A stretch of DNA of 64,000 nucleotides from Comamonadaceae bacterium CD01 (lineage in GTDB: Bacteria > Pseudomonadota > Gammaproteobacteria > Burkholderiales > Burkholderiaceae_C): the NCBI GenBank assembly GCA_002894305.1, contig PGEI01000004.1:1-64000 (forward strand). Direction: 5' to 3'. Shown piece after piece: positions 36,168-47,560 of this stretch. Numbering within the stretch: position 1 is the stretch's first letter; every line of letters begins with the position of its first letter. The translations under genes were made by a program, and so were the position numbers. The notes below the pieces were generated by a model. The model did not search any database. It was not told the DNA's origin and worked only from the letters and a program-made list of their open reading frames with translations.

Positions 36168-37421
36168 CTATGCCAGCAGATCGGCCAGCGTGCGCGCGAC
36201 GACCTTGGTGGCGCGGCGCAGGTCTTCGAGCTGCACGCGCTCGTCGTTTCTCTTGGCGTGGGACTCCAGCACGGTGCGCGGGCCGGCGCCGTAGATCACA
36301 CCGGGAATGCCTTGTTCGACGTACAGGCGCACGTCGGTATACAGCGGCGTGCCGACGGCCGGTGGCTTTTCGCCGAAGACCGCCTCGCCGTGCTTTTGGA
36401 TGGCGTCGACCAGCGGCGCGTTGCCGGCCAGCGGCGTCATGGCGTTGGCCAGCAGGATGCGGCGGATGTCCACGCGCACCGCGTCGTCGCCGGTGTAGCC
36501 GCGCTGCGCGTTGAAGTCTTGCACCGCCTGGGCGATGACGGCGCGGATGCGGGCCTCGACCTCGGCCGGGTTTTCCTCGGGGATCATGCGGCGGTCGAGC
36601 TTGAGCACCACCTTGCCGGGAATGACGTTGGTATTGGTGCCGCCCTCGATGCGCCCGATGTTCAGATAGGGGTGCTTGATGCCGGGCACCCGGGAGCTGA
36701 TCTGTTTATACGCGGTGTTTTCCGCGTACAGCGCGCCCATGACGGCCACGGCGCCCTGCAGTGCGTCGACGCCGGTGTGCGGCACGGCGGCGTGCGCCAT
36801 CTTGCCGTGCACCGTGACCTCCATCTGCAGGCAGCCGTTGTGCGCGGTCACGACCTCGTAGGAGAAACCGGCGGCAATCAGCAGGTCGGGTTTGGTCAAC
36901 CCTTGCGCCAGCAGCCAGCCTGGGCCGAGCAAGCCGCCGAACTCTTCGTCATAGGTGAAGTGCAGTTCGATGGCGCCCTTGCTGGGTTTGGCGACGGCTT
37001 CGAGCGCGCGTACCGCGAAGGTGAAGGTCGAAAAATCGCTCTTGCTCACCGCGGTGGCGCGCCCGTACATCGCGCCGCTGTCGATTTCTGCGCCGTAGGG
37101 GTCGTGCTGCCAGCCCTCGCCCGGGGGTACGACGTCACCGTGGGCGTTGAGCGCCACGGTGCGCCCGCCGTCGCCATAGGGGCGGCGCACGATCAGGTTG
37201 GTGATGGACTGCATGCCGTAGTCGCGCACTTCCTGCTCGGGCACGGCGTGCTTCTCGGCGTCAAAGCCCCAGGCGGCGATCAGCTCGGCGGTGCGCTCGG
37301 CGTGCGGCGCATTGTTGCCCGGCGGCGTGTCGGTGGGCACGCGTACCAGCTGCTGCAAAAACGTGATCTGCTCGTCAAAGTGCTGGTCGATCCAGGCGTC
37401 CAGTCGTTCGTAGGTGTTCAT
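36168..37421 (-). CDS. M20-family amidohydrolase in the urate operon, substrate unknown
   Basis: 417-residue metallohydrolase of the ArgE/DapE/M20 superfamily. Visible residues are H94 and D96 in LNAHGDVVPPG, the acidic pair in YDEEFGG (about 159-160) and the dimerisation-domain segment VTVHGKMAHAAVPHTG. The usual GRGxxDMKG bridge is replaced by GRATAVSKSDFSTF (about 120-133). An ungapped alignment puts valine at the bridging aspartate, with another aspartate four residues on. It overlaps the uraD-allC gene by ATGA and is the last gene of the operon. A role in ureidoglycolate/ureidoglycine hydrolysis or release of a related amide is possible but inferred from position only. Confidence 0.8.
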   Translation of the reverse strand: MNTYERLDAWIDQHFDEQITFLQQLVRVPTDTPPGNNAPHAERTAELIAAWGFDAEKHAVPEQEVRDYGMQSITNLIVRRPYGDGGRTVALNAHGDVVPPGEGWQHDPYGAEIDSGAMYGRATAVSKSDFSTFTFAVRALEAVAKPSKGAIELHFTYDEEFGGLLGPGWLLAQGLTKPDLLIAAGFSYEVVTAHNGCLQMEVTVHGKMAHAAVPHTGVDALQGAVAVMGALYAENTAYKQISSRVPGIKHPYLNIGRIEGGTNTNVIPGKVVLKLDRRMIPEENPAEVEARIRAVIAQAVQDFNAQRGYTGDDAVRVDIRRILLANAMTPLAGNAPLVDAIQKHGEAVFGEKPPAVGTPLYTDVRLYVEQGIPGVIYGAGPRTVLESHAKRNDERVQLEDLRRATKVVARTLADLLA

Positions 37422-39193
37422 GGGTTTTCCTGTGCGAGTTGGTGCAAGACATGGCTGAAGGCGTCGACGGCCAGCTGCATGTCGTCGGCGGTGCTCGATT
37501 CCAGCGGGTTGTGGCTGATGCCGCTGTTCTCGCCGCGCACGAACAGCATGGCCTGGGGCAGCATCTGGTGGATCTTCATCGCGTCGTGGCCGGCGCCGCT
37601 GGGCATGCGGTGCAGCGGCAGACCCAGTGCCTGCACGGCCGCCTCCCAGCGCATCTGCCACACGGGGTTGCTGGGCGCGGCGCTGGCCTGCATCGAGCGC
37701 GTGCTCTCGTAGCGCAGGCCGCGGCGCTGGCAGATGGAGGCAAATTCGGCCAGCACGTCGGCCTCCAGCGCGTCGCGCTGCGCGTCGCTGGGCGCGCGCA
37801 TGTCCAGGCTGAACAGGCAGCGCCCCGGCACCACGTTGACCGAGCCGTTGGGCACCTGCAGCATGCCGACGGTGGCCACGCTGCCCACGTCGCGCAGCGC
37901 GCGCTGCTCGGCGTACAGCGCAAGCTCGGCGGCGGCCAGCGCGGCGTCGCGGCGGAGGTCCATTGGCGTGGTGCCGGCGTGGCTGGCCATGCCGGTGACC
38001 TGGCACTGGTAGCGGCTGCTGGCGTTGATGCTGGTGACCACGCCCAGTGGAATGCCCAGCTCGTTGAGCACCGGGCCCTGCTCGATATGCACCTCGATGA
38101 AGCCCAGGTAGCGCGCCGCATCGCGCTTGAGCCTGGGGATGTCGTCGATGCACAGGCCGGCATGCACCATGGCGTCGCGCAGCGTGATGCCGTCCGCGTC
38201 CTGCTGGTCGAGCCACGCGGGATCGAAGTCGCCGACCAGCGCGCCCGATCCGAGGAAGGTCGCCTTGTAGCGCTGGCCTTCTTCCTCGGCAAAGGCGACG
38301 AGCTCGATGCCGAACGGCAGGCGCCGCTTCTCGCGGGCCAGGGCACGCACGCAGGCCATTGGCACGAAGATACCCAGCCGGCCGTCGTACTTGCCGGCGT
38401 TTCTCACAGTGTCGTAGTGGCTGCCGGTAAGCAGGTATTTGCCGCCTTCTTGCGCCGGGTGGTAGCGGCCGACGACGTTGCCCACGGCGTCAATACTGAC
38501 TTCGTCAAAGCCCGCCTCGCGCATCCAGTGGCTGATGCGCTGGGCGCAGGCGCGGTGGGCGTCGGTCAGGTAAGTGACGGTGAGCTGGCCCAGTTCGGCA
38601 AAGCCGGCATCGCTGTGCTGGGCCAGGCGCTCGTGCCAGTCCCAGACGTCGTTGCCGAGCACGGGCTCGGCGTCGAACTTGTCGTTGAGCCGAATTTCTG
38701 CAATGCGGTGGATGTTGCGCAGCGCCTCGGCGCGCTCGAAGTCCCGGGGGTTGTCCAGGCGGCGGGCAAAGGTGTCGATGATTTGCCGCTTGGACAGGCC
38801 CAGCCCGCGCGGGCCGCGCACTGCCAGGATGAAGGGAAAGCCGAAGCGCGCGTTGTAGTCCTGGTTGAGCTGCTGGATGCGCTCGAACTCCTTTGGCGTG
38901 CAGTCGGTCAGCCCGGCCTTGTTCTGCTCGTTGGTCGATTCGGCAGTCAGCGTCTTACCGACCATGGCCTTGCCGGCCAGCTCCGGGTGGGCGCGGATCA
39001 GTTGCAGCTGGCGCTCTTCGCCCGCGGCGTCCAGCGCCTGTACCATTGCGTATTTGAGCTGCGCCAGACTGGTGAACGGGCGCCGCGCCAGCGCCGCCTC
39101 GGCAATCCAGGGCGAATGCTCGTACACGCCGTCCAGCAGTTGCACGGCTTCGGAGAGCGGGGCTGCGTTCAGTTGTTCCAGGGTCAATGCCAC
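37418..39193 (-). CDS. fused OHCU decarboxylase / allantoate amidohydrolase
   Basis: 591-residue bifunctional protein. Residues about 1-170 are an OHCU decarboxylase (UraD): IRAHPELAGK with H69, ESTNEQNKAGL and FGFPFILAVRG. This half makes S-allantoin from OHCU. Residues about 175-591 are an M20-type allantoate amidohydrolase (AllC). Its metal-site segments are TGSHYDTVRNAGKYDGRLG (H259, D261, D270), FAEEEGQ, EVHIEQGP, ASHAGTTPMDLRRDA and SGAGHDAM. The two steps flank the allantoinase reaction encoded by the gene just upstream. It starts 59 bases after puuE and overlaps the following M20 gene. Confidence 0.93.
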   Translation of the reverse strand: MALTLEQLNAAPLSEAVQLLDGVYEHSPWIAEAALARRPFTSLAQLKYAMVQALDAAGEERQLQLIRAHPELAGKAMVGKTLTAESTNEQNKAGLTDCTPKEFERIQQLNQDYNARFGFPFILAVRGPRGLGLSKRQIIDTFARRLDNPRDFERAEALRNIHRIAEIRLNDKFDAEPVLGNDVWDWHERLAQHSDAGFAELGQLTVTYLTDAHRACAQRISHWMREAGFDEVSIDAVGNVVGRYHPAQEGGKYLLTGSHYDTVRNAGKYDGRLGIFVPMACVRALAREKRRLPFGIELVAFAEEEGQRYKATFLGSGALVGDFDPAWLDQQDADGITLRDAMVHAGLCIDDIPRLKRDAARYLGFIEVHIEQGPVLNELGIPLGVVTSINASSRYQCQVTGMASHAGTTPMDLRRDAALAAAELALYAEQRALRDVGSVATVGMLQVPNGSVNVVPGRCLFSLDMRAPSDAQRDALEADVLAEFASICQRRGLRYESTRSMQASAAPSNPVWQMRWEAAVQALGLPLHRMPSGAGHDAMKIHQMLPQAMLFVRGENSGISHNPLESSTADDMQLAVDAFSHVLHQLAQENP

Positions 39194-39252: not shown

Positions 39253-40218
39253 TCAGAGCGGTGCGGGGAAGCGCTCGGCCCAGTGGCGCGCCAGGTCGAT
39301 GCGCCGGCAGATCCAGACGCGGTCGTGGCGCTGGATGTAGTCCAGAAAGCGCTGCAGCGCGGTGATGCGCCCGGGGCGGCCCAGCAGGCGGCAGTGCATG
39401 CCGATGCTCATCATCTTGGGCGCGTTCAGGTCGTCCGGATCGCCCTCGGCGTAGAGCGTGTCGAAGCTGTCCTTCAGGTACTGGAAGAACGGGTCGGCGT
39501 GCGAGTAGCCCTGGGGCAGGGCAAAGCGCATGTCGTTGGCGTCCAACGTGTAGGGCACGATGAGCTGGTGCGCGGCGCTGCCGTCGCTCTTGCTCACTTT
39601 CATCCAGAACGGCAGGTCGTCGCCGTAGTAATCGCTGTCGTAGGCAAAGCGCCCGGCGTCGGCCACCAGGCGGTGGGTGTTGGGGCTGTCGCGGCCGGTG
39701 TACCAGCCCAGGCCGTGGTCGCCGCCGCTGCCATAGAGGTCTTCGAAGATATCCAGGCACTGCTGCATGTGGGCGCGTTCGACGGCTTCGGGCAGATCCT
39801 GGTAGTGGATCCAGCGCAGGCCGTGGCAGGCCACTTCGTGGCCCAGTTCGTCGAAGGCTTGGGCGGCCTCTCGGTGTTTTTGCAGCGCGCTGGCAATGCC
39901 GAAGACGGTCAGGTGCAGGCCCCGGCGCTCGAACTCGCGCAGGATGCGCCACACGCCGGCGCGCGCTCCGTATTCGTAGATGCCCTCCATGCTCATGTGG
40001 CGCGCTGGGTAGGCCGCGGGGTTGAACATCTCCGAGAGGAACTGCTCGCTCGCCGCGTCGCCGTGCAGCACGCAGTTTTCGCCGCCTTCCTCGTAGTTGA
40101 GCACGAACTGCACCGCAACGCGCGCCTGGCCTGGCCAGTGGGGATGGGGCGGATTGCGGCCGTAGCCGTGCAGGTCGCGGGGGTAGGGTGCGGTGGCGTC
40201 GTAGATGGGCAGGGACAT
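39253..40218 (-). CDS. puuE: allantoinase, PuuE (polysaccharide-deacetylase-like) type
   Basis: 321-residue cytoplasmic enzyme hydrolysing allantoin to allantoate. It belongs to the metal-independent PuuE type with a NodB-like fold rather than the amidohydrolase (AllB) type. Recognisable segments are DLHGYGRNPPHPHWPGQARVAV near the start, FVLNYEEGGE, GHEVACHGLRWI and the C-terminal HDRVWICRRIDLARHW. It is 12 bases after the GntR regulator and so almost certainly co-transcribed with it. Confidence 0.94.
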   Translation of the reverse strand: MSLPIYDATAPYPRDLHGYGRNPPHPHWPGQARVAVQFVLNYEEGGENCVLHGDAASEQFLSEMFNPAAYPARHMSMEGIYEYGARAGVWRILREFERRGLHLTVFGIASALQKHREAAQAFDELGHEVACHGLRWIHYQDLPEAVERAHMQQCLDIFEDLYGSGGDHGLGWYTGRDSPNTHRLVADAGRFAYDSDYYGDDLPFWMKVSKSDGSAAHQLIVPYTLDANDMRFALPQGYSHADPFFQYLKDSFDTLYAEGDPDDLNAPKMMSIGMHCRLLGRPGRITALQRFLDYIQRHDRVWICRRIDLARHWAERFPAPL

Positions 40219-40230
40219 GGGTGGGGACTT

Positions 40231-40896
40231 TCAGGAAAGCGCCAGCGACAGCTCGTTGGCCGGTTGTTCGCGGTCGTATACCAGGCTGGCCTCGACGTGC
40301 TGCAGGTGCTCGTCCATCAGGCGCACCGCGCGCTCGGCGTCGCGTGCGGCCAGTGCGTCGACGATGGCCTCGTGCTCCTCGTGCGAGTGTGCGGCGGCGC
40401 TGGCGCTCTGGTACATCAGCACGATCAGCGCGCAGCGCGAGATCAGCTCGCCCAGCAGCTGGGCGAGCACCTCGTTGCCGGTCAGCCGCGCCATGGCGAC
40501 GTGGAAGTCGGCCAGCAGTTCGCTGCGCCCGGACACGTCGGCGCGCTCCACGGCGGCCTGCTCGCGCGCCACGTGGTCGCGCAGCGCGCGAAGCTGCGCC
40601 GGTGTGCACTGGGCGGCCAGGTTGCGCGTCATCTCGGCCTCCAGCATGCGGCGCACCGCAAAGACCTGGCGCGCCTCCTCGGCCGTGGGTGCGGCGACGA
40701 AGGCGCCGCGCGCCGGCTCCAGGCGCACCAGCCGGTTTTGCGACAGCTGGAACAGCGCCTGGCGCACCAGGGTGCGCGAGACGCCGAAGTGATCGGCCAG
40801 CTTCTGCTCGGCCAGCTTGGTGCCGGGGTGCAGGCGGTGCTCGATGATGGCGCGCGTGAGCTGCTCGACGATTTGGCTGGTGGTGGTCGTTTGCAT
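40231..40896 (-). CDS. GntR-family (FCD subfamily) regulator of the urate genes
   Basis: 221-residue regulator. The winged helix (about residues 5-70) contains KLADHFGVSRTLVRQALFQL. The all-helical FCD effector domain (about 80-210) carries the histidines expected for metal/carboxylate binding (ADFHVAM, HEEHEAIVDAL, DEHLQH). The ATG at 40896 was chosen; a frame upstream to 40995 would run through the palindrome at 40918-40941. That palindrome and two related sites upstream of uraH and puuD suggest it represses itself and the pathway. The ligand could be urate, allantoin, allantoate or ureidoglycolate; this is unproven. Confidence 0.88.
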   Translation of the reverse strand: MQTTTTSQIVEQLTRAIIEHRLHPGTKLAEQKLADHFGVSRTLVRQALFQLSQNRLVRLEPARGAFVAAPTAEEARQVFAVRRMLEAEMTRNLAAQCTPAQLRALRDHVAREQAAVERADVSGRSELLADFHVAMARLTGNEVLAQLLGELISRCALIVLMYQSASAAAHSHEEHEAIVDALAARDAERAVRLMDEHLQHVEASLVYDREQPANELSLALS

Positions 40897-40917
40897 GGCG
40901 CCATGATAGCGCTGGCG

Positions 40918-40941
40918 ACCAAATGTGTATACACTTTTGGT
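40918..40941. promoter_or_regulatory. operator site 1 of the urate regulon
   Basis: A 24-bp palindrome with 11 of 12 positions matched, centred on GTATAC, with outer arms ACCAAA and TTTGGT. It contains ATGTGTATACACTTT (40923-40937), shared with sites 2 and 3. It lies 22 bases before the GntR start codon. Its core TATACA could be the -10 box of the operon. Confidence 0.8.
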
Positions 40942-41022
40942 GCACCGCAAATCCAAGGAAAACCCGGTCTGTACCGAGCCGCCAGCGCAGTACATCGGTG
41001 GCGGGCGGAAGGAGGCAGGCGG

Positions 41023-42954
41023 TCAGCCCGCCGTGGCCAGGGCAGGCTGGAGGGCGCTGTGGTGGCGGCGAACGAAGTCGGCAAACGACTGCGCCGGCAG
41101 CGCCGCCGACCAGTGAAAGCCCTGGCCGACGTCGCAGCCCAGCGTCTGCAGCAGTTGCTGCGTGGGCGCGTCTTCGACGCCCTCGGCCACGGTGCGCAGG
41201 CCCAGGCAGCGCGCCATCTCGATGATGGCGCGCACCAGCTCGCACGTTTGCGGCTCGTGCGCGATGTCGCGGGTGAACGAGCGGTCGATCTTCAGGTGCT
41301 GTACCGCCAGGCGCTGCAGATAGGCCAGGTTGGAGTAGCCGGTGCCGAAGTCGTCGATGGCCACCTGCACGCCCAGGTCGTGCAGCCGATCCAAAGTCTG
41401 GCTCAGGCGGGCGGTGTCGCCCAGCAGCACCGATTCGGTGATCTCCAGCTCGATCGATGTCGCGGTCACGCCATGCTGGCGCAGCACCTGGGTGACCGTG
41501 TGCGCCATGTCGGTGCGCAGAAACTGCAGCGGCGAGACGTTGACCGCCACGCGGATGCCGTGCAGCCCCTGCGCCTGCCAGCGCAGCAGGTCGGTGCAGG
41601 CCTGGTGCAGCGCCCAGTTGCCCAGCTGCTCGATCATTCCGGCGCGTTCGGCCACCGGGATGAAGCGCTCGGGCGAGATCCAACTCTGTTCGGGGTGGTG
41701 CCAGCGCATCAGCGCCTCGGCGCTGGTGATGCGCCCGCTGGCCAGGTCGATCTTGGGCTGGTAGTGCAGCTGCAGCTGGCCGCACTCCAGCGCGTTGCGC
41801 AGGCCGGCGCTCAGCTGCAGCTGCTCGGCCAGGCTGGCGTTCATCTGCTCGTCGAAGAAGCGAAACGTGTTGCGCCCGGCGCTCTTGGACTGGGACATGG
41901 CCAGGTCGGCGTGCTTGAGCAAGGTGGTGCCGTCGCCACCGTCGCGCGGATGGATGGCGATGCCCAGCGAACAGCTGGTGTGCACCGGCATGTCGTCCAG
42001 CGCAAAGGGCTGGTCGAACTGCGCGAGCAGCTTGTTGGCGATCGTGGTGAACGCCTGCTCGTCGCGCACGCCGCCCAGCAGTACCGCGAACTCGTCGCCT
42101 GCCAGCCGCGCCACCGTGTCGCCCGGGCGCACGCAGGCGCGCAGCCGCGTGGCCACGGCGCGCAGCAGCGCGTCCGCCCTGGCGTGGCCCAGCCCGTCGT
42201 TGATGGTTTTGAAATGGTCCAGGTCGAGGAGCATGACGCCCACCAGCGTCTGGTCGCGCTGCGCCTGGGCCAGCAGGCCGTCGAGGCGGTGCAGCGCCAG
42301 CGTGCGGTTGGGCAGGCCGGTCAGCATGTCGCGGTAGGCCAGCTCCTCGATGCGGGCGTGCGAGCGCATCAGCTCGTGCTTTTCGATGTCCAGCTGCGCC
42401 AGCAGGTGGCGCTGGTCGGCCTTGACGACCATGACGAAGATGCCGGTGGCGACCAGGATGGTGGCCAGCGCCAGTGGGCGCGAGGCGTCGATCGCGTGCG
42501 GCACGCTGGGCAGGAAGCCCAGCTGGTGCGCCCCGTACAGGCCGGCCAGTGCCGCCAGCATGACCGCCAGTAGCGCGGCCGAGAGCCGGTGCGAGCCGAA
42601 CATGCTGGCAAACAGCAGCAGGCCGGGAAAGGCGATGAAGGCTTCGTCATACAAACCCTGGCCGGCCACCATCAGCCCCAGCAGCATCAGTAGCAGAGAG
42701 CCCAGCGTCAGCCAGGCGCTGGCCATTGCCCGGTGGCGCTCGTTGAGGCGATAGGCCGCCACGAGCAGCGCGACCGTGGTCAGCTCCAGGCCGGCGGCCA
42801 GCCAGGCGCCCTTGGCCAGGTTCATCGCCGCCAGCAGCATGAAGGCGGCAAGAATGGCGGTCAGCACCTGCCGCAGCCGGGCCTGGCCAAGCACCCGCAT
42901 GGAAGACCTGCCGGCGCCTGGGGGTTGCGTGGGGTGTGTGGGGCCGTCAGACAA
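41023..42954 (-). CDS. membrane GGDEF-EAL protein (c-di-GMP synthesis/hydrolysis)
   Basis: 643 residues. About five to six membrane helices (25-178) lead into a GGDEF domain (AGDEF at about 285-289; LDLDHFKTINDGLGHARAD) and an EAL domain. The EAL domain keeps its catalytic set: EALMRW (about 413), VNVSPLQF, ELEITES, IDDFGTGYSNL (about 533), HLKIDRSF and AEGVED. Phosphodiesterase activity is therefore expected; the GGDEF half has alanine at the first position, which is often tolerated. It is clearly paralogous to the protein at 34173-36086. No dedicated sensory domain other than the membrane region is seen. Confidence 0.9.
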   Translation of the reverse strand: MSDGPTHPTQPPGAGRSSMRVLGQARLRQVLTAILAAFMLLAAMNLAKGAWLAAGLELTTVALLVAAYRLNERHRAMASAWLTLGSLLLMLLGLMVAGQGLYDEAFIAFPGLLLFASMFGSHRLSAALLAVMLAALAGLYGAHQLGFLPSVPHAIDASRPLALATILVATGIFVMVVKADQRHLLAQLDIEKHELMRSHARIEELAYRDMLTGLPNRTLALHRLDGLLAQAQRDQTLVGVMLLDLDHFKTINDGLGHARADALLRAVATRLRACVRPGDTVARLAGDEFAVLLGGVRDEQAFTTIANKLLAQFDQPFALDDMPVHTSCSLGIAIHPRDGGDGTTLLKHADLAMSQSKSAGRNTFRFFDEQMNASLAEQLQLSAGLRNALECGQLQLHYQPKIDLASGRITSAEALMRWHHPEQSWISPERFIPVAERAGMIEQLGNWALHQACTDLLRWQAQGLHGIRVAVNVSPLQFLRTDMAHTVTQVLRQHGVTATSIELEITESVLLGDTARLSQTLDRLHDLGVQVAIDDFGTGYSNLAYLQRLAVQHLKIDRSFTRDIAHEPQTCELVRAIIEMARCLGLRTVAEGVEDAPTQQLLQTLGCDVGQGFHWSAALPAQSFADFVRRHHSALQPALATAG

Positions 42955-43094
42955 GGTGCTGGGAAGGTGTTGGCGATGGGAAACTTATTGTAAATATATG
43001 TTTGTGTTTGTGAGCCATTCCCGCACTCGCCAACAGGTTCCCGGCAACCGGCTCGATCCGCCACGGCCCGGCGCGCGTGCCGGGCCGCGCCGGA

Positions 43095-44879
43095 TCAATA
43101 CCCCAGCGTGCGCCCGTCCGGGTTGCGCGGGTCGGACGCGCCGTAGAGCACGCCCTCGCGCACCTGGATGGTCTGCGTGCGCCCCATCGTGGGCTTGACG
43201 GCGATCTTGTGTCCGCGCTCGCGCAGCAGCGCCAGCGTGTCGTTGGAAAAGCCTTTCTCCAGGCGCAGCTCGTCGGGTGTCCACTGGTGATGAAAGCGCG
43301 GCGTGGCGGCGGCTTCAGAGGGGTTCATGCCGTAGTCGACGATGTTGACCAGGGTTTGCAGCACCGTGGTGATGATGCGCGGCCCGCCGGGGCTGCCGGT
43401 GACCAGCGCCACCTTGCCGTCCCTGAGCGCGATGGTGGGCGTCATCGACGACAGCGGGCGCTTGCCCGCCTGCACCGCATTGGCGTCGCCGCCGACCAAG
43501 CCGTAGGCGTTGGCCACGCCGGGCTTGGCGGCAAAGTCGTCCATCTCGTTGTTGAGCATGATGCCGGTGCCTGCTGCGACGATGCCGCTGCCGAAGTTGG
43601 TGTTCAGCGTATAGGTGACGGCCACCGCGTTGCCCGCCTTGTCGACCACCGAGAAATGCGTGGTCTGGTCGCTCTCGTAGGCCTGGGGCTGGCCCGGCTT
43701 GATGGACTGGGCCGGGCGCGCCTTTGCTGGATCGATGCCGGCGGCCAGGTGGTCGGCGTAGCGCATCGAGGTCAGGCCCTTGAGCGGCACCTTGACGAAG
43801 TCCGGGTCGCCCAGGTACTCGGCGCGGTCGGCGTAGGCCAGCTTCATCGCCTCGGTCATGTGGTGGATGCTCTGCGCGCTGTTGACGCCCCAGTCCTTCA
43901 TCGGCCAGCGCTGCATCATGTTCAGGATCTGCACCAGGTGCGCGCCGCCCGAGGACGGCGGCGGCATGGTGACGATCTCGTAGCCGCGGTAGTGGCCGCG
44001 TACTGGTTCGCGCTCGACCACCTTGTAGTTCTTCAGGTCGGCCAGCGTGATGCCGCCGGCGTGCGGCGCCATCTCGGCGGCAATTTTTTGCGCGATTGAG
44101 CCCTCGTAGAAGGCCTTGGGGCCTTCCTTGCCGATCATGCGCAGCGAGGCGGCCAGGTCTTTTTGCACCAGCAGGTCGCCCTGCTGCAGCGGCGCGCCAT
44201 TCTTCCAGAAGATGGCCTGGCTGGCCGGCCAGGGCGCCAGCGTCTTCGTCTCCTGGCGGAGCACCTTGGCCAGGGTTTCGCTGACCGGATAGCCTTTCTC
44301 GGCCAGGTCGGCGGCCGGAGCGACGACGCGCTCCAGCGGCAGGCTGCCCCAGCGCTGCAGCGCGTGCGCCAGGCCGGCAACGGTGCCGGGAACGCCGACG
44401 GCGTAGTGGGTATAGAGCGACTTGCCGTCGATCACCTTGCCCTGCGCGTCCAGGTACATGGTGCGGTGCGCGCCCTGCGGCGCCACTTCGCGAAAATCCA
44501 GCGCCACGTCGCGCCCGGTCTTCGCGTCATGCACCACCATGAAGCCGCCGCCGCCGATGTTGCCCGCATTGGGCAGCGCCACGGCCAGCGCAAAGCCCAT
44601 CGCGACGGCCGCGTCGACCGCGTTGCCCCCGGCCTTGAGCGTGTCCAGCCCGATGCGCGAGGCCAGCGCCTGCTCGCTGGCCACCATGCCGTTGTGCGCC
44701 ACCACCGAGTGGAAAATGTCCATGTCGAAGTCGTAGGCCGCTGCTGCCGCCTGGGCGGCGCTGCTTTGGACGACGGCGGGGGCGGCGGCCTGGGACGACG
44801 GGGCGGTGCTGGTGCAGCCGGCCAGGCTGGCCAGCGCCAGCGCGACGCTGGCGGCCAGCAATGTGCTGCGCAAAGTCAT
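43095..44879 (-). CDS. ggt: gamma-glutamyltransferase, probable lipoprotein form
   Basis: 594-residue Ntn-hydrolase precursor that cleaves gamma-glutamyl bonds of glutathione and related peptides. The [10 protein letters not shown] segment holds the autocatalytic threonine that starts the small subunit. [23 protein letters not shown] and PLSSMTPTI are typical. The signal peptide ends in LAGC (C22), a lipobox, so the enzyme is probably membrane-anchored in the periplasm. The ATG at 44879 follows GAGGAGAC. It diverges from uraH across a 119-base gap that contains operator site 2, so it may share purine control. A GC hairpin lies at 43064-43087 past its stop. Confidence 0.92.
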
Positions 44880-44947
44880 GCTTGTCTCCTCGGGTTGTCG
44901 GTGGGAGCGGGCAGGGTAAACGACCGATGCCTCCATGCCAAGCGAGT

Positions 44948-44971
44948 ACAAGATTTGTATACACTTTAATT
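44948..44971. promoter_or_regulatory. operator site 2 of the urate regulon
   Basis: Contains ATTTGTATACACTTT (44953-44967), differing from site 1 in one core base; 18 of 24 positions match site 1. It lies 28 bases before the uraH start codon, between uraH and divergent ggt. The palindromic GTATAC core could serve as -10 in either direction. Confidence 0.75.
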
Positions 44972-44998
44972 TGCAACCCCAAGACAGGAGACGACACC

Positions 44999-45349
44999 AT
45001 GGGCCTGAGTACCCACGTTCTGGACACCATGCACGGCTGCCCCGCGGCCGGCATGGCGGTGGCGCTGTACGCCACCGACGGCGACGACGCCACGCTGGTC
45101 AAGCGCCTGGTGCTCAACCACGACGGCCGCACCGACGCGCCGCTGTTCGGCGACGACAGCCTGCGCACCGGCACCTACCGGCTGACCTTCGACGTGGCAG
45201 CCTACTTCAAGGCCAGGGGCGTGCAGCTGCCCGAGCCCAACTTCCTGGGCCGGGTGAACCTGGATTTCGGCATTGCCCACGCCGACCAGCATTACCACGT
45301 GCCGCTGCTGGTCAGCCCCTGGAGCTACTCCACCTACCGCGGCTCCTGA
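44999..45349 (+). CDS. uraH: 5-hydroxyisourate hydrolase (transthyretin-like)
   Basis: 116-residue enzyme opening 5-hydroxyisourate to OHCU, the step after urate oxidation. The start [19 protein letters not shown] and the C-terminal tetrapeptide YRGS are the hallmarks of this transthyretin-related family. The active-site histidines are H6 and one in [16 protein letters not shown] at 44986-44990 precedes the ATG. xdhC follows 12 bases after the stop, forming a short operon. Confidence 0.96.
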
Positions 45350-45361
45350 GCCGTGCTTCTC

Positions 45362-46225
45362 ATGGACATGAATGCCCTGGCAGTCACCGCGCTGCAGCAA
45401 CTGCTGCAAGCGCTGGCGCAGGGGCCGGCATGCCTGGTGCGGGTGCACGCGGGCAAGGGCTCGGTGCCGCGCGAGGTGGGCGCCTGGATGGCGATTGCCG
45501 CCAGCGACCCCGAGGTGCTGATCGGCACCATTGGCGGCGGCCATCTGGAACTGCAGGCCATGCGCGAGGCGCGCGAGCGCCTGGACGCGTACCTGGCCGG
45601 GCAGGGCGCGCGCGCGCCGCTGGTGCGGCAGGCGCTCGGCCCCAGCCTGGGGCAGTGCTGCGGCGGCGTGGTCACGCTGCACTATGAATGCGTGCAGGCG
45701 GGCGACATCGAGCGGCTGCGCCGCGAACTGGCCGCGCCAGGCCATCCGCTGGCGCTGTTTGGCGGCGGCCATGTCGGCCACGCCATCATGCGCGTGCTCA
45801 CGCCGCTGCCGTTCGCGATCACCTGGGTCGACAGCCGCGACGAGATCTTTCCGCCACAGCTGCCCGATTCGGTGCAGTGCGAGCATTCCGATCCGGTGCA
45901 GGCGGCGGTCGCCGACCTGGCGAGCGGCTCGATGGTGCTGATCATGAGCTTCAGCCACGCCGAGGATCTGGACATCGTCGCCGCCTGCCTGCAGCGCCAA
46001 CGCCGACAGAGCGACCTGCCGTTCATTGGCCTGATCGGCAGCAAGACCAAGTGGGCGACGTTTCGCCATCGGTTGGAGGCGCGCGGCTACACCGGGGCCG
46101 AGCTGGAGCAGGTGACCTGCCCGATCGGCGTGCCCGGCATCAGCGGCAAGCAGCCCGAGGTGATTGCCGTGGCCGTGGCGGCACAGTTGCTGATGCGGGT
46201 CAACCCTGAAATACCGGTTCGGTAA
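45362..46225 (+). CDS. xdhC: xanthine dehydrogenase accessory factor XdhC
   Basis: 287-residue chaperone that binds molybdenum cofactor and promotes its sulfuration before insertion into xanthine dehydrogenase. The N-terminal XdhC/CoxI domain has IGTIGGGHLELQAM and LGQCCGGVV. The C-terminal Rossmann domain has LALFGGGHVGHAI and IGLIGSKTKW. Start choice is uncertain: ATG 45362, ATG 45368 or GTG 45353. xdhA and xdhB are not in this window, so the enzyme it serves must be encoded elsewhere. It shares the uraH transcription unit. Confidence 0.9.
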   Translation: MDMNALAVTALQQLLQALAQGPACLVRVHAGKGSVPREVGAWMAIAASDPEVLIGTIGGGHLELQAMREARERLDAYLAGQGARAPLVRQALGPSLGQCCGGVVTLHYECVQAGDIERLRRELAAPGHPLALFGGGHVGHAIMRVLTPLPFAITWVDSRDEIFPPQLPDSVQCEHSDPVQAAVADLASGSMVLIMSFSHAEDLDIVAACLQRQRRQSDLPFIGLIGSKTKWATFRHRLEARGYTGAELEQVTCPIGVPGISGKQPEVIAVAVAAQLLMRVNPEIPVR

Positions 46226-46243
46226 TTTGTATACACTTTGAGT
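46220..46243. promoter_or_regulatory. operator site 3 of the urate regulon
   Basis: Contains ATTTGTATACACTTT (46225-46239), identical in its 15-base core to site 2; 17 of 24 positions match site 1. It starts at the xdhC stop codon and lies about 115 bases upstream of the puuD start codon. Confidence 0.75.
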
Positions 46244-46354
46244 TCACAAATTATGGTCGCAGCGGAGCGGGAGAGCAGACGGGTCTCCATGCGCGGCCGA
46301 TTCCCCTGCTCAGAGCGCCCCGCGGTGGTGAGCAGCACACAAGCGCGAAACACC

Positions 46355-47560
46355 ATGGAAAGCTATCTGCTCGACTGGGCCAATCTGCTGCTGCGCTGGA
46401 CGCACGTCATCACCGCCATTGCCTGGGTTGGCTCCTCTTTCTACTTCGTCTTTCTCGACAGCAGCCTGACGCCGCCGGTTGACGAGAAGATGCGCCGCGA
46501 CGGCGTGACCGGTGAGTTGTGGGCGGTGCACGGCGGGGGCTTCTACCACCCGGTCAAGTACAACGTCTCGCCGCCCAGGCTGCCCGACCATCTGCATTGG
46601 TTCTACTGGGAGAGCTACACCACCTGGCTGTCGGGCTTTGCGCTGCTGGCGGTCTCCTATCTGTGGAACGCCGGCATCTACCTGGTCAGCCCGTCCAACC
46701 CCATCATGTCGCCAGCCATGGCCGTGGTCGCGGCGCTGGCCTTCCTCGCCGTGTTCTGGCTGGCGTATGACGCGATCTGCCGCATCTGGGGCCAAAAAGA
46801 ACATGGCGACGCCACCGTCGGCGCGCTGGTCCTGGTGCTGGTGTGCATCGCCGCTTACCTCGCCTGCCACCTCTTTCCCGGCCAGGCGGCGTTTTTGCTG
46901 ATGGGCGCGATGCTGGCCACCGCGATGAGCGCCAACGTGCTGTTCTGGATCATTCCTGGCCAGCGCAAGGTGGTGGCGGCGCTCAAGGCCGGCCAGCCGG
47001 TCGACCCCATCCATGGCAAGCGCGGCAAGCAGCGCAGCGTGCACAACACCTATTTCACGCTGCCGGTGCTGTTCGCCATGCTGTCGACGCACTACGGCTG
47101 GCTCTACAACCATGGCCAGAACTGGCTGGTGCTGATCCTGATGATGTTCGCCGGCGCGGCGATCCGCCAGTTCTTCGTGATGCGCCACGGCTTCAAGCTT
47201 GGCCGCAATCCGCATCCCTGGCCCTATGCGGCCGTGGGCATCGCGGTGCTGCTGGGCGTGCTGGCGTGGCTCAAGCCCGCGCCGCAGCCGGCGCTGGCCG
47301 CCAGTGGCGAGCCGGTGGGCTATGCGCAGATCCACGACCTGATGCAGCAGCACTGCCTGGTTTGCCACAGCCAGGCGACGATCCAGCAAAAAGGCGTCAA
47401 GTTCGACACGCCCGAGGACGTCAAGAGCCACGCCCAGCAGATCTACCAACAGGTCGTGCAGCTGCGCAAGATGCCGTTCGGCAACCCGGACGCGCTCACG
47501 TCCGAGGAGGTCGACCTGTTCAAGCGCTGGTACGAGGGCGGCGCGCCGGTGGCGCCGTGA
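46355..47560 (+). CDS. puuD: membrane-bound urate oxidase (urate hydroxylase) with C-terminal cytochrome c domain
   Basis: 401 residues. An N-terminal DUF989-type membrane region with about eight helices begins ESYLLDWANLLLRWTHVITAIAWVG. The C-terminal cytochrome c domain has the heme motif CLVCH (about 334-338) and a candidate axial methionine in RKMPFGN (about 373). Proteins of this type oxidise urate to 5-hydroxyisourate and pass electrons to the respiratory chain instead of making hydrogen peroxide. The start at 46355 gives the family N-terminus; operator site 3 lies upstream, with a leader of over 100 bases. It follows xdhC after 129 bases. Confidence 0.93.
   Translation: MESYLLDWANLLLRWTHVITAIAWVGSSFYFVFLDSSLTPPVDEKMRRDGVTGELWAVHGGGFYHPVKYNVSPPRLPDHLHWFYWESYTTWLSGFALLAVSYLWNAGIYLVSPSNPIMSPAMAVVAALAFLAVFWLAYDAICRIWGQKEHGDATVGALVLVLVCIAAYLACHLFPGQAAFLLMGAMLATAMSANVLFWIIPGQRKVVAALKAGQPVDPIHGKRGKQRSVHNTYFTLPVLFAMLSTHYGWLYNHGQNWLVLILMMFAGAAIRQFFVMRHGFKLGRNPHPWPYAAVGIAVLLGVLAWLKPAPQPALAASGEPVGYAQIHDLMQQHCLVCHSQATIQQKGVKFDTPEDVKSHAQQIYQQVVQLRKMPFGNPDALTSEEVDLFKRWYEGGAPVAP

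Follow-up and report, generated by a model that had tools for sequence, protein, structure and literature searches.

Purine breakdown genes are controlled by regulators of several other protein families, among them PucR, AllR and the urate-responsive MarR regulators HucR and PecS, and HpxS belongs to purine use in Klebsiella. Here we consider a 64,000-nucleotide stretch of the genome of Comamonadaceae bacterium CD01 (contig PGEI01000004.1, positions 1 to 64,000; hereafter the window), in which a GntR/FCD regulator gene, gntR, lies near genes of urate breakdown, a palindrome found before gntR recurs before uraH and before puuD, the gene for a membrane-type urate oxidase, and a structured leader RNA lies between the last of these sites and the puuD start codon (Table 1). 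GntR operators have the consensus form (N)yGT(N)xAC(N)y (PMC7797058). The HpxS orthologous group, placed in the GntR/FadR subfamily by comparative genomics, is described with a motif in which a 2-nt gap separates GT from AC (PMC4494728). GTATAC, at the centre of all three window sites, agrees with the general form and shares the GT-N2-AC spacing of HpxS, a likeness that is one of operator spacing alone. Atu1419 of Agrobacterium fabrum (PDB 6za3) belongs to the VanR group, defined by six, not seven, effector-domain helices, and binds ATGTATACAT overlapping the -10 boxes of the genes it regulates (PMC7797058). By analogy it is a good mechanistic precedent: the regulator considered here is modelled with the same six-helix, VanR-type FCD fold, and its palindrome lies over the predicted -10 of target genes. 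Unlike Atu1419, which belongs to hydroxycinnamate degradation, it would serve a urate regulon, through a longer conserved palindrome and with the -35 covered at its own gene. Among RNA elements, the NMT1/xanthine riboswitch likewise precedes genes for the transport and oxidation of purines in Proteobacteria. It is described as a hairpin that carries an internal bulge and was tested in a 53-nt construct (PMC7373994), a description that differs from the puuD leader with its about 85 nt, two separate stems and no Rfam match. Searches of open-licence full texts yielded no paper dealing with a GntR-controlled urate regulon in these organisms or with the puuD leader RNA.

We consider it very probable, on the comparisons given below, that the palindrome is the operator of the neighbouring GntR protein, acting as a repressor, and that the leader RNA forms a second layer at puuD. 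The 24-bp palindrome before gntR, noticed in a sequence-only reading of the window, pairs at 11 of its 12 positions and is separated by 21 bases from the gntR ATG (40896). Its 15-base core, ATKTGTATACACTTT, occurs without mismatch at 40923, 44953 and 46225 only, and allowing up to three mismatches yielded five matches, all of them at these three sites (two sites match on both strands), as compared to a mean of 0.20 matches and a maximum of 2 in shuffled windows; TGTATACA has exactly three occurrences in the window. The pairing, the recurrence at the two further positions and the lack of any other window copy thus stand as that reading had them, as do the gene neighbours, since the sites precede the local urate units gntR-puuE-uraD/allC (minus strand), uraH-xdhC and puuD. 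As read from the sequences, the operator palindrome is close to ACCAAAAGTGTATACACTTTTGGT.

The site is conserved well beyond the window. Among the best 80 of the matches listed in relatives, taken as orthologue loci, the core TG[TC]ATACA precedes gntR at all 80, lying 36-48 bases from the ATG at 79. Over 101 loci totalling 1.49 Mb (the window, these 80, and 20 extra stretches, most of them chosen for pattern matches), with downstream gene starts in relatives taken from tblastn, an operator matrix at a threshold of at least 17 bits gave 184 sites, of which 172 are at gntR/uraH, puuD, an NCS2 permease or ggt/uraH (66 common to gntR and uraH, 21 gntR, 51 puuD, 26 permease, 8 ggt/uraH/xdhC, leaving 12 unlabelled); reversed sequence gave none, and 20 permuted palindromic matrices gave 0 or 1. 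Counted by gene, an upstream operator is present for gntR at 87 of 88 loci, uraH at 74 of 77, puuD at 51 of 62 and the permease at 26 of 27, in keeping with the expectation that orthologous promoters would retain it. Because the gntR sites are mostly the training set, the independent evidence is that of the remaining sites, and a recount over loci L009-L088, with training sites, the window and the 20 extra stretches excluded, retains a site at 45 of 54 puuD and 20 of 21 permease genes.

The organism's own genome, a 3.76-Mb draft in 212 contigs, contains AAAGTGTATACACTTT with at most three mismatches at four places, the three window sites and C50:176, the last sitting 61 nt before an NCS2 xanthine/uracil permease gene. 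A purine permease had been predicted as a member, and its site here, together with those at the permease loci of relatives, supports the prediction well. A 24-position profile whose sole source was 54 distinct sites from gntR promoters of other species matched, at E<=1, the three window sites only (four rows, one site being read on both strands). A symmetrised matrix added one on contig C131 (L118:924) that scores lower, at 20.5 bits, and lies 29 nt ahead of a porin gene. The permease and porin sites are the genome's fourth and fifth, both weaker than those of the window. The regulon had been described as local, which is too narrow, as it extends to the permease and probably the porin on other contigs; as an outer-membrane member, the porin is a possible one. 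Matches with one or two mismatches on C11 (before a low-complexity open reading frame), C40, C135, C146 and C164 were rejected: in the stretches examined, the profile matched none of them.

The less common neighbours of the site are also informative. Nine of the 12 unlabelled sites were read, and all precede transporters, porins or a racemase-like gene: porins at L118 (by Pfam) and at L123 and L126 (64-65% identical to the L118 porin), a BMP-type binding protein at L127 (by Pfam) and, as judged by eye, NMT1/THI5-like ABC binding proteins at L013, L048 and L080, the racemase-like gene at L034 and an NCS2-like permease at L072. The site at L086 belongs to a leader RNA cut by a contig end, and that at L066 lies at the end of its locus. 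Of six further matches in the genus, two are at permeases, two at porins and one at a short-chain-dehydrogenase-like gene (L258, by eye); the sixth stretch, L262, holds no matrix site. Placed profile matches in nine genus genomes fall at the gntR locus, the permease, the porin, a BMP-type binding protein (G003) and a short-chain-dehydrogenase-like gene (G003, by eye). Porins 64-71% identical to the C131 porin carry sites in genomes G001, G003, G004 and G006; the porin-associated sites in four genus relatives are L123, L126, L259 and L260. The sequence-only reading would have fallen had the core been common at unrelated genes, but it is rare elsewhere in the own genome, the 101 loci and the genus genomes. 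The urate regulon, with the predicted permease, is thus well supported by comparative genomics and is of a known kind.

TATACA within the core had been taken for an occluded -10 box, and here the evidence divides by gene. At gntR, a TANNNT box starts 32, 33 or 34 bases from the operator start in all 86 distinct promoters (9, 57 and 20, respectively), 16-18 nt after the core, while other position triples between 24 and 53, overlapping ones excepted, gave 0. A separate box at this distance implies that the operator core covers the -35, so the proposed -10 does not hold for gntR. In 73 of the 86 promoters, 6 or 7 bases separate the end of this TANNNT from the aligned ATG; a -10 so placed means that transcription should mostly start at or beside the ATG, and the repressor mRNA is therefore likely to be leaderless or nearly so. 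The structural genes (uraH, puuD and the permease) have no TANNNT box downstream of the operator as at gntR. Their downstream operator half reads TACANT in 26 of 26 permease, 73 of 73 uraH and 51 of 51 puuD sites, and the mirror half upstream does so in 4, 64 and 46 of these, respectively; the corresponding predicted -10, TACACT, is at 44960-44965 for uraH and 46232-46237 for puuD. Leader RNAs of the kind described below have an operator-type core within 90 nt upstream in 90 of 106 distinct cases, all 90 with TACANT, and 8 of the 16 without a core keep TACACT within 50 nt, as compared to 0.4% of random 50-mers from the same loci. At uraH, puuD and the permease, the -10 overlapped by the operator is probably TACACT. 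For these genes, placing the operator over a probable -10 was correct, but the box is TACACT and is shifted by two bases.

The regulator itself has an N-terminal GntR winged helix-turn-helix (PF00392, 61.7 bits) and a C-terminal FCD domain (PF07729, 90.3 bits), both over cut-off. An AlphaFold2 model built from 41 sequences (mean predicted local distance difference test score, pLDDT, 86.6) has six helices in the effector domain (72-96, 99-117, 121-138, 142-162, 167-183 and 187-203), which as modelled places it in the VanR group of FCD regulators; solved folds near it are 2hs5, AlkR 9isw, 7u5q, TM0439 and Atu1419. H132, H175 and H197 are invariant in the 41 sequences, with Leu128 and Asp130 nearly so; metal-binding FCD regulators have an Asp and three His as ligands, and the three His here match the usual metal site, whereas Leu128 stands at the canonical Asp position (H-4), with Asp130 close by. 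Matches to the regulator at E<=1e-60 are present in 144 of 200 genomes of the window's family, and in a phylum draw of 398 genomes, matches above 60% identity were seen in that family only, the next being at 47%. Loci of more distant GntR homologues (L201, L209, L211 and L213) have TTGTATACAA-type palindromes or purine genes nearby, the palindrome at L211 adjoining an xdhA-like gene; no common system with these homologues could be established.

An alignment of puuD promoters revealed a conserved block between the operator and the start codon, and comparative analysis indicates that this leader (46254-46339) is a conserved, structured RNA whose pairs covary strongly. A loose regular expression returned 81 rows, including duplicates and unrelated coding matches, and a stricter one 52 distinct rows; these, with the window, L079 and L131 added by coordinates, make up the 55 sequences of a free alignment, A1. 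A1 supports stems P1 and P3, with 19 cells changed on both sides of a pair as compared to a shuffle mean of 4.2 (0 of 500 as high), though the number of pairs showing such changes, three, is unremarkable (189 of 500 shuffles). In an alignment of 88 matches (85 distinct) fitted to a model, R1, 98.0% of cells pair, 8 of 17 pairs show changes on both sides and 54 cells do so, as compared to an average of 9.9 cells in shuffles, none of 500 of which came as high, and at most 14 in slid controls; the fit biases this alignment towards R1, and relatedness among sequences can also raise such counts above shuffles. Almost no variation is seen in GCGG of the junction or in CCGC of the P3 loop. The window copy has an extra C in the P3 loop (46318-46321) that is found in none of the other 68 rows of alignment A4 and is either a variant or a sequencing error. 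Two other readings were rejected: a coding region, as length differences in the middle break the frame, and a known family, for which Rfam searches gave no support. Against 4227 Rfam families at gathering score, the window matched tRNAs only, and nine RNA-bearing loci had no match, with only weak unrelated ones at E up to 10.

In wider searches with R1, over genome draws that overlap and with stricter filters losing weak matches, the RNA turned up in 14 of 399 genomes from the order, in each case before puuD, in 12 of 398 from the phylum and in 114 of 200 from the family. At 22 loci among the 30 best family matches (L215-L236), puuD lies directly downstream in every case. Among 19 lower-scoring or second copies chosen for inspection, 13 precede puuD, four an NCS2 permease (L237, L241, L242 and L244, the gene start at L237 being about 265 bases on) and one a periplasmic binding protein (L245), the last being L238. 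There (L238:3547-3636), an R1-type RNA stands before a putative lumazine-binding protein gene, which may hint at the ligand range. Of 106 distinct leaders, 80 have an operator-type core at a distance of 16-26 bases upstream of the RNA. Pathway genes that carry a conserved, structured RNA in their 5' leader, as found here, answer to one general criterion for a riboswitch, the other being specific ligand binding that changes expression. Because the RNA precedes two unrelated genes of one pathway, puuD and the NCS2 permease, a purine ligand is suggested. We thus regard it as a candidate purine riboswitch, which may be a second, RNA-based sensor beside the repressor switch site.

Table 1. Coordinates of the operators, promoter elements, leader RNA and genes in the window.
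Feature	Position	Strand	Description
Operator 1	40918..40941	.	24-bp palindrome ACCAAATGTGTATACACTTTTGGT before gntR; core over gntR -35 position; 40.7 bits
Operator 2	44948..44971	.	gap between divergent ggt and uraH; 30.2 bits
Operator 3	46220..46243	.	before puuD; overlaps xdhC stop codon 46223-46225; 22.9 bits
TATACA	40926..40931	-	in operator core; predicted gntR -35 hexamer, from promoter scan and spacing in 86 promoters
TATCAT	40903..40908	-	predicted gntR -10; 17 bases after TATACA, 6 before ATG
Structured puuD leader RNA	46254..46339	+	between operator 3 and puuD; ~85 nt
P1	46255-46260 with 46293-46298	+	GGUCGC/GCGGCC; variable region inside
P3	46306-46312 with 46329-46335	+	CUGCUCA/UGAGCAG
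Possible pseudoknot	46262-46265 with 46320-46323	+	GCGG in junction with CCGC in P3 loop
UraD (OHCU decarboxylase) / allantoate amidohydrolase	37418..39193	-	TIGR03164 over cut-off, residues 17-171; amidohydrolase models C-terminal
puuE allantoinase	39253..40218	-	downstream of gntR, same strand; TIGR03212 above cut-off
GntR/FCD regulator gene (gntR)	40231..40896	-	221 aa; VanR-type fold predicted
uraH hydroxyisourate hydrolase	44999..45349	+	TIGR02962
xdhC xanthine dehydrogenase accessory protein	45362..46225	+	TIGR02964
puuD membrane-type urate oxidase	46355..47560	+	PF06181 Urate_ox_N

Two peculiarities of gene arrangement deserve mention. UraD and allantoate amidohydrolase are fused here in a single 591-aa open reading frame. 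Between gntR and uraH (41023-44879) lie ggt and a long open reading frame, GGDEF/EAL-like by eye, in contrast to the relatives, in which 66 of the 184 sites are one operator common to gntR and uraH.

We envision the following mechanism. The palindrome would be bound by the adjoining VanR-type GntR/FCD protein, whose dimer, when no inducer is present, would block RNA polymerase: at its own, probably leaderless, promoter it would sit over the -35 and cause autorepression, and at uraH-xdhC, puuD and the purine permease it would cover the TACACT -10. Release would come from one of the intermediates formed as urate is broken down; our guess is a carboxylate, for example allantoate. The puuD transcript should then begin about 10 nt before the structured RNA, which would act as the second layer, a candidate purine-sensing riboswitch working on translation. 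That this RNA is a new riboswitch class for urate, xanthine or a close intermediate, placed at the extreme 5' end of the puuD and permease mRNAs and directly below an operator-covered -10 while the repressor mRNA is leaderless, is a serious possibility that we advance tentatively.

Several observations weigh against this combined account. Eleven of 62 puuD genes lack a site above threshold, and 13 of 86 gntR promoters, with 9-76 nt between the -10 and the aligned ATG, do not fit the leaderless reading; nor is a -35 evident that would partner the TACACT -10. A site at xdhAB had been predicted and did not materialize: the own genome has none of at least 8 bits at xdhA (C197:1-6000) or at xdhB (C200:1-6000), where the contig holds just 182 bases upstream (start 183 bases from the end) and so cuts off the upstream side, and we have rejected the pair as own-genome regulon members. 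Operator and RNA are also separable, as two f18 leaders lack the operator core, a Hydrogenophaga metagenome-assembled genome keeps the puuD operator with the leader RNA missing (L083:5865-5920), and in genome G179, where no GntR match reaches 1e-60, the RNA is present. The pseudoknot has conservation only, without support from covariation, and a single-sequence fold of the window leader is no more stable than shuffles (z 0.19).

Alternatively, the sites could be bound by another GntR paralogue or regulator, with the neighbour linked to them by position alone. Relatives hold many GntR-family proteins at 34-47% identity, TGTATACA-type sites occur near some of the more distant homologues too, and Atu1419 binds its ATGTATACAT in a different pathway (PMC7797058); however, the site precedes the regulator orthologue itself at nearly every locus (87 of 88), other sites mostly precede pathway or transport genes, and the placed matches in the nine genus genomes comprise the gntR locus, permease, porin and BMP-type protein besides one short-chain-dehydrogenase-like gene, so we consider this unlikely. 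It is far less likely still that the conserved core is merely a sigma-70 promoter element in an incidental palindrome, as the persistence of TACACT in half of the 16 coreless leaders might suggest, because the upstream half is conserved as well, with A at index 6 in 46 of 51 puuD and 86 of 86 gntR sites (but in 4 of 26 permease sites), and because the gntR -10 lies elsewhere than the core. Harder to set aside, though still doubtful in our view, is that the leader RNA senses no ligand and serves instead in stability, processing or protein binding, its presence in purine mRNAs being incidental. Its near-invariant core letters, its covarying stems and its occurrence ahead of both urate oxidase and NCS2 permease, unrelated genes of a single pathway, fit an aptamer; on the other side, no terminator-like site lies inside the window leader, the leader tails read in relatives follow no single conserved scheme for sequestering the ribosome site, and the RNA is nearly restricted to one family.

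The account given here provides a testable urate regulon for the large betaproteobacterial group that uses PuuD, and names its regulator, operator, members and promoter geometry. Common to urate oxidase and a purine permease, the uncatalogued RNA in their leaders stands as a concrete candidate for a new class of purine riboswitch and makes urate sensing in these cells directly testable. If the tentative riboswitch reading is true, sensing of one pathway at the DNA and RNA levels would be stacked within about 120 bases.

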